Below are positions 933 to 3,659 of a DNA stretch of 32,379 nucleotides, piece by piece. Position 1 is the first letter of the stretch. Every line of letters starts with the position of its first letter. The notes below the pieces were generated by a model that ran no database searches, had not been told where the DNA came from, and worked only from the letters and a program-made list of their open reading frames with translations. This DNA is from Candidatus Rokuibacteriota bacterium (GTDB lineage Bacteria; Methylomirabilota; Methylomirabilia; Rokubacteriales; CSP1-6), in contig JACPCH010000214.1 in the NCBI GenBank assembly GCA_016179875.1, positions 1-32,379 on the forward strand, written 5' to 3'. The position numbers and the translations under genes are program-made.

Positions 933-2219
933 CTACGCGCGGCGGAAGCGAACCGCCGTGAACCCGTCGGTGCCGTGGCGGTGGGGCAGGCACCGGAGCG
1001 TGCCGTCGGCCTCGAGCGGGAAGGGGAACGCCGCCGGCGGGTCGGGGCGGAAGTCGGGATGGGCCGCCCGGAACGCTTCCGTGACCGCCTCGTTCTCCTC
1101 GGGCTCGAGCGAGCACGTCGCGTAGACGAGCCGGCCGCCCGGCTTGACCATGGCCGCCCCGGCGGCCAGGAGCCCGCGCTGGCGCTCGGCGCCGGCGGCG
1201 AGGTCGCCGGGCTGGCGGCGCCACTTCACGTCGGGGTTGCGGCGGAGCACGCCGAGGTTCGAGCACGGCGCGTCCGCGCTGCCCTCGAGCGTCTCGACGA
1301 TGCCGGCGCCCAGCCGCGCGGCGGCCTCGCGAACCCGGGCGAGCCGCATCGGGTGCGGATCGAAGGCGAGCACCCGCCCGCGGTTGTCCAGAAGCTGGGC
1401 GAGGTGCGTCGTCTTCGTGCCCGGGGCGGCGCAGACGTCGGCGACGGTGTCGCCGGGCCGCGGCTCGAGCAGCCGCGCCACCAGCATGGACGCCTCGTCC
1501 TGGACGGCGAACGCGCCTTCGGCGAAGGCGCGCCAGGCCGCGGGCGCGCCGCTCCCGCCCACCACGAGCCCCTCCGGCGCCCAGCGGGTCGGCCGGGGGG
1601 CGAGGCCCTCCTCGGCGGCGAGGCGGGCGGCGAGGGCCTCGCGCGAGACGCGCAGCGTGTTGGCGCGGAGCGTGAGCGGCGGCCGCTCGTTCATCGCCCG
1701 CATGAGCGCCTCGGCCTCGTCCTGCCCGTAGCGGGCGACCCAGCGCGCGGCGAGCCAGGTCGGGAACGAGCAGCGCGTGGCGAGCGCGTCCAGCGGATCG
1801 CGCGGCGGCGCCGGCTCCCGCTCGGCCGCGCCGCGCCGGGCGAACGCGCGCAGGACCGCGTTGACGAACCCGGCGACGCCCGGCTTGCCGCGCGCCAGCG
1901 TGACGGCGTCGTCCACCGCGGCGAACGGCGGCACGCGCTCGAGGAACGCGAGCTGGTAGGCCGTCATCCGGAGGATCGCCAGCACGGGCGCGTCGAGCGC
2001 GTCGAGGCGCCGCTTCGAGTGCGGCGCCAGGATCCAGTCGAGGTAGCGCTGCCAGCGGAGCGTGCCGTACACCAGCTCGGTGGCGAGCGCGGCGTCGCGC
2101 GGCGGGAGCGGGCGCGCGGCGAGCGCGGCGTCGAGGGCGAGGTCGGCGAAGGCGGCGTCGGCCGCCACGCGCGTGAGCACGTGGGCCGCGACCGCGCGCG
2201 CGGCCGACGCGCGCTTCAC
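933..2219 (-). CDS. rsmB: 16S rRNA (cytosine-967-C5)-methyltransferase RsmB, with an apparently shortened motif IV region
   Basis: NusB-like N-terminus plus CAAPGTKTTHLAQLL and DAPCSNLGVLRRNPDVKWRR, YATCSLEPEENE; GTG start overlaps fmt stop (GTGA). Confidence 0.93.
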   Translation of the reverse strand: MKRASAARAVAAHVLTRVAADAAFADLALDAALAARPLPPRDAALATELVYGTLRWQRYLDWILAPHSKRRLDALDAPVLAILRMTAYQLAFLERVPPFAAVDDAVTLARGKPGVAGFVNAVLRAFARRGAAEREPAPPRDPLDALATRCSFPTWLAARWVARYGQDEAEALMRAMNERPPLTLRANTLRVSREALAARLAAEEGLAPRPTRWAPEGLVVGGSGAPAAWRAFAEGAFAVQDEASMLVARLLEPRPGDTVADVCAAPGTKTTHLAQLLDNRGRVLAFDPHPMRLARVREAAARLGAGIVETLEGSADAPCSNLGVLRRNPDVKWRRQPGDLAAGAERQRGLLAAGAAMVKPGGRLVYATCSLEPEENEAVTEAFRAAHPDFRPDPPAAFPFPLEADGTLRCLPHRHGTDGFTAVRFRRA

Positions 2220-3136
2220 GGCGTCCGGAAGACGGCGCCGGGCGCGAGGCGCGCGCCGCGCAGATAATCGGCCCACGGCATCGCGCGGCGGTTCTCCGGC
2301 TGCACCTCGGTCGGCAGGAGCGCGCCCGCGCCCGTCGCGACGGCGAGGCTCCCGGCGTGGGCGACGAGCGTCCCGGGCGCGATCCCGCTCGGGCCGGGCA
2401 CGGCGGCGGCGCGCCAGATCGTGAGCGCGCCCGCCGGGGCCAGCGCGAGCCCGCCCGGCCACGGATTGCAGCCGCGCACCCGGTTCGCCAGCTCGCGCGC
2501 GGGCCGGCGCCAGTCGAGGTGGCCGTCGGCCTTCTTGAGCCGGGGCGCCGCCGTCGCCTCCTCGTGGCGCTGGGGCGTGGAGGTGAGCGCGGGCAGGCGC
2601 GCGAGCGTGTCGGTCAGCACCTCGGCGCCGAGCCCGGCCAGGCGCGCCGCCAGCTCGCCCGCGGTCTCGTCGGCGCCGATCGGCGTGGACGCGGCGAGGA
2701 GGATCGGCCCCGTGTCCATGCCCTCGTCCATCTGGAACGTGGTGACGCCGGTCATGGTCTCGCCGCGGATGAGCGCCCACTGGATGGGCGCGGCGCCCCG
2801 GTAGCGCGGCAGGAGCGAGCCGTGGACGTTGATCGAGCCGCGCGCCGGCGCGTCGAGCACGGCCCGCGGCAGGATCTGGCCGAAGGCGACGACGACGGCG
2901 ACGTCGGCGCCGAGCGCCCGCAGCCGCTCGGGCCACTCCGGGTCGCGCAGGCGCGCGGGCTGGAGCACGCTCACGCCCGCGGCGCGCGCACGGACCTTGA
3001 CCGGCGGCGGCTGGAGCCGCTGGCCGCGGTGGGCGGGCCGGTCGGGCTGCGTGACGACGGCGACGACCTCGTGCCGGGCCAGCACCGCCTCGAGCGTCGG
3101 CAGCGCGAACCCGGGGGTGCCGTAGAAGAGGACCTT
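2216..3136 (-). CDS. fmt: Methionyl-tRNA formyltransferase; conserved N-terminus begins directly at the def stop codon with no canonical start codon
   Basis: KVLFYGTPGFALPTLEAVLARHEVVAVVTQPDRP..., NVHGSLLPRYRGAAPIQWALIRGE, GVTTFQMDEGMDTGPIL; nearest standard start is GTG at 3085. Confidence 0.92.
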   Translation of the reverse strand, partial: KVLFYGTPGFALPTLEAVLARHEVVAVVTQPDRPAHRGQRLQPPPVKVRARAAGVSVLQPARLRDPEWPERLRALGADVAVVVAFGQILPRAVLDAPARGSINVHGSLLPRYRGAAPIQWALIRGETMTGVTTFQMDEGMDTGPILLAASTPIGADETAGELAARLAGLGAEVLTDTLARLPALTSTPQRHEEATAAPRLKKADGHLDWRRPARELANRVRGCNPWPGGLALAPAGALTIWRAAAVPGPSGIAPGTLVAHAGSLAVATGAGALLPTEVQPENRRAMPWADYLRGARLAPGAVFRTP

Positions 3137-3659
3137 AAAGCGCGAAGGCGTGGCGGGGGGCGTCCTCGCGGAGACCTTCTTTCTTGATCTTCCGCTTGAT
3201 GCGGTCGCGCGTCACCGGGTCGAGGCGGTCGATGAAGAGCACGCCGTCGAGGTGGTCCATCTCGTGCTGGAGCACCCGCGCGCGCAGGTCGCGGGCCCGG
3301 ATCCGCACGGGGCCGCCGTCGGCGCCCGCGGCCTCGACGTCGACCCACTCGGCGCGCGCGACGGGCGCGAACACGCCGGGGATCGAGAGGCACCCCTCCT
3401 CCGCCGTCACCTGGCCGCCCTGGGCGATGATCACCGGGTTGACGAGCGCCTGGACGCCGCGGCCCGCCTCGTCGCCGACGACGACCAGGCGCAGCGAGAC
3501 ACCGACCTGCGGGGCGGCGAGGCCGATCCCGACCTCGTCGTACATCGTCTCGGTCATGTCCTCGATCAGCGTCCGGACCTCCGGGGTGACCTCGCCGACG
3601 GGCAGCGCCCGCCGCCGCAGCACCGGATCGCCGTATTTTCTGACTCTCAGAACCGCCAT
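3135..3659 (-). CDS. def: Peptide deformylase
   Basis: MAVLRVRKYGDPVLRRRA, GIGLAAPQVG, EEGCLSIPG, LQHEMDHLDGVLFIDRL motifs; stop TAA at 3137-3135. Confidence 0.97.
   Translation of the reverse strand: MAVLRVRKYGDPVLRRRALPVGEVTPEVRTLIEDMTETMYDEVGIGLAAPQVGVSLRLVVVGDEAGRGVQALVNPVIIAQGGQVTAEEGCLSIPGVFAPVARAEWVDVEAAGADGGPVRIRARDLRARVLQHEMDHLDGVLFIDRLDPVTRDRIKRKIKKEGLREDAPRHAFAL

Follow-up and report, generated by a model that had tools for sequence, protein, structure and literature searches.

Among the chromosomal genes of bacteria, conserved +1 frameshifting is, to our knowledge, known mainly from prfB, where a short leader is joined to release factor RF2 at the site CUU UGA C. The stop codon of the prfB sites is UGA in 98.6% of cases and UAA in 1.4%, and is never UAG (PMC12421855). 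Of 32 shift codons compared in E. coli with UAG as the next codon, none came close to CUU_U in efficiency, and the Shine-Dalgarno (SD) stimulator of +1 shifting sits 3 nt upstream (PMC5009743). Frameshift fusions have also been predicted by GeneTack, e.g., that of magnesium chelatase, which involves a -1 shift on an A-rich run; the main text of that paper names neither deformylase nor formyltransferase (PMC3711429). The two enzymes considered here, peptide deformylase (Def) and methionyl-tRNA formyltransferase (Fmt), occur as a natural in-frame fusion in Exiguobacterium, and this fusion complements an E. coli def-fmt mutant (PMC12690207). Finally, overlapping neighbours in operons are commonly coupled by stop-start overlaps such as ATGA and GTGA, and re-initiation works without an SD when the stop and the start are close (PMC2268962). 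No description of a frameshift between def and fmt was found in the literature that we searched, a search with most subscription journals outside its coverage.

The def-fmt junction in the window

The window, i.e., the whole stretch of 32,379 nt that was analyzed, belongs to a metagenome-assembled genome of Candidatus Rokuibacteriota bacterium (GCA_016179875.1, contig JACPCH010000214.1), and carries def and fmt on its minus strand. Rokubacteria are uncultured bacteria of soil and groundwater. The two enzymes have opposed activities: Fmt formylates the first amino acid of new proteins and Def deformylates. The features are listed below, with counts that refer to the 17 species sharing the junction (see next section).

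3135..3659, minus strand: def, peptide deformylase, 174 aa, ending in RHAFAL (PF01327, E 1.2e-45; open reading frame and slip translation)
2216..3136, minus strand: fmt, methionyl-tRNA formyltransferase, from codon 2 (AAG) to TGA, with no canonical start (TIGR00460 and alignment with 1fmt)
3135..3137, minus strand: def stop TAA (TAA or TAG in 17 of 17 species), whose last two bases are the first two of Fmt codon 2
3137..3140, minus strand: proposed slippery CTTT, made of the last Leu codon of def and the first base of the stop (CTT in 16 of 17 species)
3149..3151, minus strand: ACG in the fmt frame, five codons upstream of codon 2, a candidate non-AUG start that would give MPSRF-KVLF (17 of 17 species)
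3083..3085, minus strand: GTG at Fmt residue 19, the first in-frame canonical start, likely the one chosen by gene callers and unconserved in relatives
3135..3173, minus strand: last 12 codons of def and its stop, where synonymous sites are more conserved than elsewhere in def and fmt
2217..2219, minus strand: GTG start of an rsmB-like gene of the same operon, in an ordinary stop-start overlap (GTGA) with the fmt stop (direct sequence reading)

The def gene starts with ATG at 3659, and its final sense codon, CTT (3140-3138), is preceded by GCG and followed by the stop TAA (3137-3135). Homology to Fmt begins at AAG (3136-3134), shifted by +1 from the def frame and with a two-base overlap with the def stop, and the codon aligned with Met1 is TTT (3139-3137). 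Between the stop that opens the fmt frame in the window, 26 codons upstream, and codon 2, there is no ATG, GTG or TTG, nor any CTG, ATT, ATA or ATC. Our reading of the minus strand agrees with the earlier note, which had described an fmt without a start at its conserved N-terminus, with TTT at Met1, AAG overlapping TAA by two bases, and a first usable GTG at 3085. The two genes are overlapping operon neighbours, like those linked by ordinary stop-start coupling and like fmt and rsmB here. Yet the start at or near the upstream stop that characterizes ATGA or GTGA coupling is missing in all 17 species, with no ATG, GTG, TTG or CTG in the fmt frame near the junction.

When CTTT is decoded as a single Leu step, the translation reads HAFAL-KVLFYGTPGF across the junction, within an open Def-Fmt frame of 480 residues. 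This slip-translated protein is a complete Def followed by a complete Fmt, both families matching over approximately their full length. It scores 266 bits against TIGR00460 (cut-off 201.5), with profile positions 1-305 on fusion residues 174-470, so that the first position of the profile aligns with the proposed slip Leu. The Fmt of the window aligns with that of E. coli (1fmt) from residue 5 of 1fmt. We searched for a second Fmt elsewhere in the genome of the window: the only other match to PF00551 has a weak Fmt score and resembles PurN. As an intact gene whose conservation begins at codon 2, and as the sole Fmt gene of this genome, fmt must be translated from upstream.

Conservation of the junction among relatives

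The pattern of a Leu codon, a TAR stop and an overlapping Fmt N-terminus was found in 17 of the 57 genomes of the family, spread over five genera. With a broader pattern applied to 95 genomes of the phylum, the same 17 were recovered and no others. Each of them has an overlap of exactly two bases; the Leu codon is CTT in 16, ahead of TAA or TAG, and CTC in L006 (genome G003), ahead of TAG. In other words, the exact -2 junction is present in 17 of the 18 species of the group in which the junction can be read. The five genera include three other genomes: in G069 the genes are separated, and in G028 and G070 the junction is interrupted by contig ends. None of the start-less species has a permanent in-frame Def-Fmt fusion. 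In the genera outside the group, the gap between def and fmt ranges from 4 to several hundred bases, and ATG, GTG, TTG or CTG lies exactly at the position of Met1; at two further loci def is not adjacent to fmt. The start-less sequences form two neighbouring groups inside an unresolved fork of the Fmt tree, and the sequences suggest that the junction likely arose once.

In the aligned set of start-less species, Fmt is 76-82% identical to that of the window, and it is conserved from codon 2 on, with K, R or S followed by VLFYGTP. The same does not hold for start codons. Across the 17 species, there is no conserved canonical start between codons -26 and +70 of the fmt frame, and the junction is conserved among relatives whereas the GTG at 3085 is not. 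The first downstream canonical start falls at Fmt residue 13, 19-21, 42-47, 58, 64 or 73, depending on the species. As it varies from residue 13 to residue 73, internal initiation would cost up to approximately one quarter of Fmt.

The end of def also shows constraint at the nucleotide level. In these species, CTT accounts for 2.5% of the Leu codons of def and fmt, but for 16 of the 17 junction codons. Among 127 four-fold columns with an unchanged residue, T is the commonest base in only two, one of which is the junction column. In-frame CTTT occurs nowhere else in the 480 codons of def and fmt in the window, and the same is true for most of the relatives checked. The six four-fold sites in the final 12 codons of def have accumulated 3 changes in total along the tree, whereas four-fold sites elsewhere average 2.36 changes each (p about 0.0005 by resampling). 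The restriction of the def stop to TAA or TAG in all species follows from the overlap: the last two bases of the stop begin codon 2 of Fmt, where TGA would lead to Asp or Glu, not to Lys, Arg or Ser.

Around 33 nt before the def stop, most members of the start-less group keep a purine run resembling GGAAGG, written with the less common codons GAA GGT; its version in the window is AGAAGG (3170-3182, minus strand). We rejected this run as a stimulator of the RF2 type, since at such a distance it is too far upstream. Folding of the alignment near the junction gave a 7-bp stem, CGCGAGG/CCUUCGCG, which ends just before CTT. It was also discarded as a stimulator: its energy is within that of column-shuffled controls, L012 disrupts it, and its 3' arm would sit within a ribosome paused at CUU. 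No upstream hairpin at the junction was stronger than the shuffled controls.

The separated genes of G069 (L038, QHSQ01000197.1) are nested in the start-less group. In this locus, approximately 1.7 kb lie between def and fmt (246-1985), and the insert carries an ECF-sigma-like gene and a cupin-like anti-sigma gene. Once the two genes are apart, fmt has a start codon, a GTG giving MTTRF-RVLFYGTP, and def no longer keeps TAR but stops with TGA. Taken as a natural experiment, the sequence of this locus supports a dependence of fmt translation on def. Sequences resembling GCGCTTT flank the insert on both sides, which suggests that insertion produced a target duplication, and with such a duplication the position of the GTG tells little about the ancestral start. 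The start-less fmt is a real feature of the clade: the junction, its frame, its conservation and that of CTT, and the restriction of fmt start codons to loci with separated genes are all read directly from the genomes.

Weak starts also occur outside the group. In seven species of sister genera (L016, L017, L048, L122, L020, L021 and L023), fmt has CTG at Met1 and no other start nearby. This CTG, a conserved CUG start, sits 4 to 36 nt past the def stop, which indicates that the lineage tolerates weak initiation. At another locus (L047:1322-1806), def is matched in two different frames and looks frameshifted in that MAG, either by error or by a lesion.

Probable frameshifting and the rival explanations

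We consider it probable that +1 frameshifting of the RF2 type at CUU UAR yields a Def-Fmt fusion alongside free Def. Ribosomes translating def would arrive at the final CUU with a UAA or UAG stop occupying the A site. The majority would terminate and release free deformylase, and some peptidyl-tRNA-Leu would move by +1 off CUU onto the overlapping UUU, the slip known from prfB. Translation would then proceed into fmt through AAG, AAA, AGA or AGC, and Def would be fused to Fmt, with Leu174 of Def in the position of Fmt Met1. The predicted junction peptide of the fusion is AFALKVLFYGTP or AFALRVLFYGTP, from ...HAFALKVLFYGTP or ...HAFALRVLFYGTP. Most or all Fmt would come from this fusion, and the level of the fusion would be linked to the translation of def and to the speed at which RF1 (or RF2, at UAA) acts on the stop. 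By analogy with the fusion of Exiguobacterium, such a product of the slip is plausible.

The comparison with prfB reveals both likenesses and differences. As in prfB, the def-fmt junction has CUU_U (16 of 17 species, with CTC_T in L006), a stop directly 3' of the slip codon (TAA or TAG, 17 of 17), a downstream reading frame in the +1 frame without a start of its own, and a slip site conserved beyond coding need. Unlike in prfB, the stop is UAA or UAG followed by A, G or C, instead of the RF2-specific UGA C, and two complete enzymes are joined. There is also no SD-like stimulator 3 nt upstream of CTT: all 17 species have ACGCCUUC there, with no anti-SD pairing, in line with what the earlier note had said of a prfB-like upstream SD. 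For comparison, all 12 prfB loci read in Rokubacteria (L079-L090), which come from genomes with the start-less junction and from related ones, have CTT TGA C with an upstream SD-like run of the GGGGG type. Lacking two defining features of the RF2 frameshift, the SD stimulator and UGA C, the def-fmt junction is a variant and not a member of the RF2 cassette. With the stimulator missing, a modest shift frequency is to be expected, perhaps sufficient for an enzyme needed in small amounts. The fusion by frameshifting proposed in the earlier note stands in part. It is the best-supported reading, in which we infer that the slip occurs, how often it does so, and that the fusion is active. The missing SD, the conserved ACG and the species with CTC TAG, where re-pairing to UCU would be less favourable, count against it, as do the absence of a permanent fusion in any species, the CUG starts of sister genera and the lack of a hairpin beyond the shuffled controls.

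The main rival is a separate Fmt made from a non-AUG start within def, the best candidate being the ACG five codons upstream (fMet-PSRF-KVLFYGTP), with the help of GAGG and of the translation of def. It is the only near-start codon common to the 17 species. It has the weak SD GAGG upstream in 16 of them, with a pairing energy of -5.9 or better; L005, which has lost this SD, argues against the ACG. The nearly invariant codons for PSRF could encode MPSRF, E. coli Fmt carries a short extension ahead of the same strand, and the GTG of L038 is at the same distance as the ACG. The CUG starts of sister genera are also in favour of this explanation, and the species with CTC is slightly more compatible with it than with slipping. 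On the other hand, the ACG is forced by the conserved His-Ala of def (codons CAC GCC), and a single synonymous change in def, CAC to CAT (creating ATG) or TTC to TTT (creating TTG), is seen in none of the 17 species. As C-ending codons are strongly preferred, the lack of these changes is only mild evidence against an ACG start. Initiation at ACG is very weak in bacteria, and it gives no special reason for the presence of CTT beside the stop. We regard it as unlikely.

Re-initiation by the same ribosome, after termination at the def stop, at the UUU or AAG that touches this stop would be consistent with the sister genera that seem to use a CUG 4 nt after the stop, and with the GTGA overlap of fmt and rsmB in the same operon. 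Yet the species share no near-cognate start at this place: UUU or UCU stands at Met1, and AAG, AAA, AGA or AGC at codon 2. Because these codons differ between species, we find re-initiation there very unlikely. A short Fmt starting at the GTG at 3085 is what a gene caller would choose, and Pfam still matches most of such a protein. But this GTG is not conserved, the next starts of the relatives being at residues 13 to 73, and all of them retain KVLFYGTP as the first strand, which makes the short form extremely unlikely to be the true product. Lastly, the earlier note had considered a one-base assembly error as a real alternative, one in which an extra base would give TGA and TTG; these are short-read MAGs. 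The same junction in 17 species from independent assemblies refutes such an error, and no close relative has an extra base giving TTG or ATG. With fmt intact and its protein conserved, we give next to no credence to sequencing error or to a decaying gene.

If the frameshift is real, the trick of RF2 would be reusable for stoichiometry or fusion, with the same slip codon, another stop and no SD across a whole clade, and the junction would provide a natural test of the contribution of the SD to frameshifting. If initiation at ACG is right instead, an important gene has an equally odd conserved start. Fmt has probably been truncated by annotation pipelines in these genomes. More tentatively, and with some doubt, this could be a second conserved chromosomal +1 frameshift at CUU-stop in bacteria, SD-free and joining Def and Fmt, in which the amount of Fmt would be tied to termination at UAR, so that the supply of release factors would feed back on initiation.

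The junction shares with the fusions predicted by GeneTack (PMC3711429) a conserved frame transition linking two adjacent reading frames, with a proposed shift of +1 in def-fmt and one of -1 in magnesium chelatase. It involves the same two enzymes as the Exiguobacterium protein (PMC12690207), which is encoded in a single reading frame, whereas in Rokubacteria def and fmt are split by a stop and a +1 change of frame. Hence, free Def would also be made, unlike in Exiguobacterium. A second stand-alone deformylase in the genome is a further likeness to Exiguobacterium: that of the window's genome (L001, G000:C166:222-695) is divergent, with 37% identity, and a second deformylase is present in most genomes of the start-less group.
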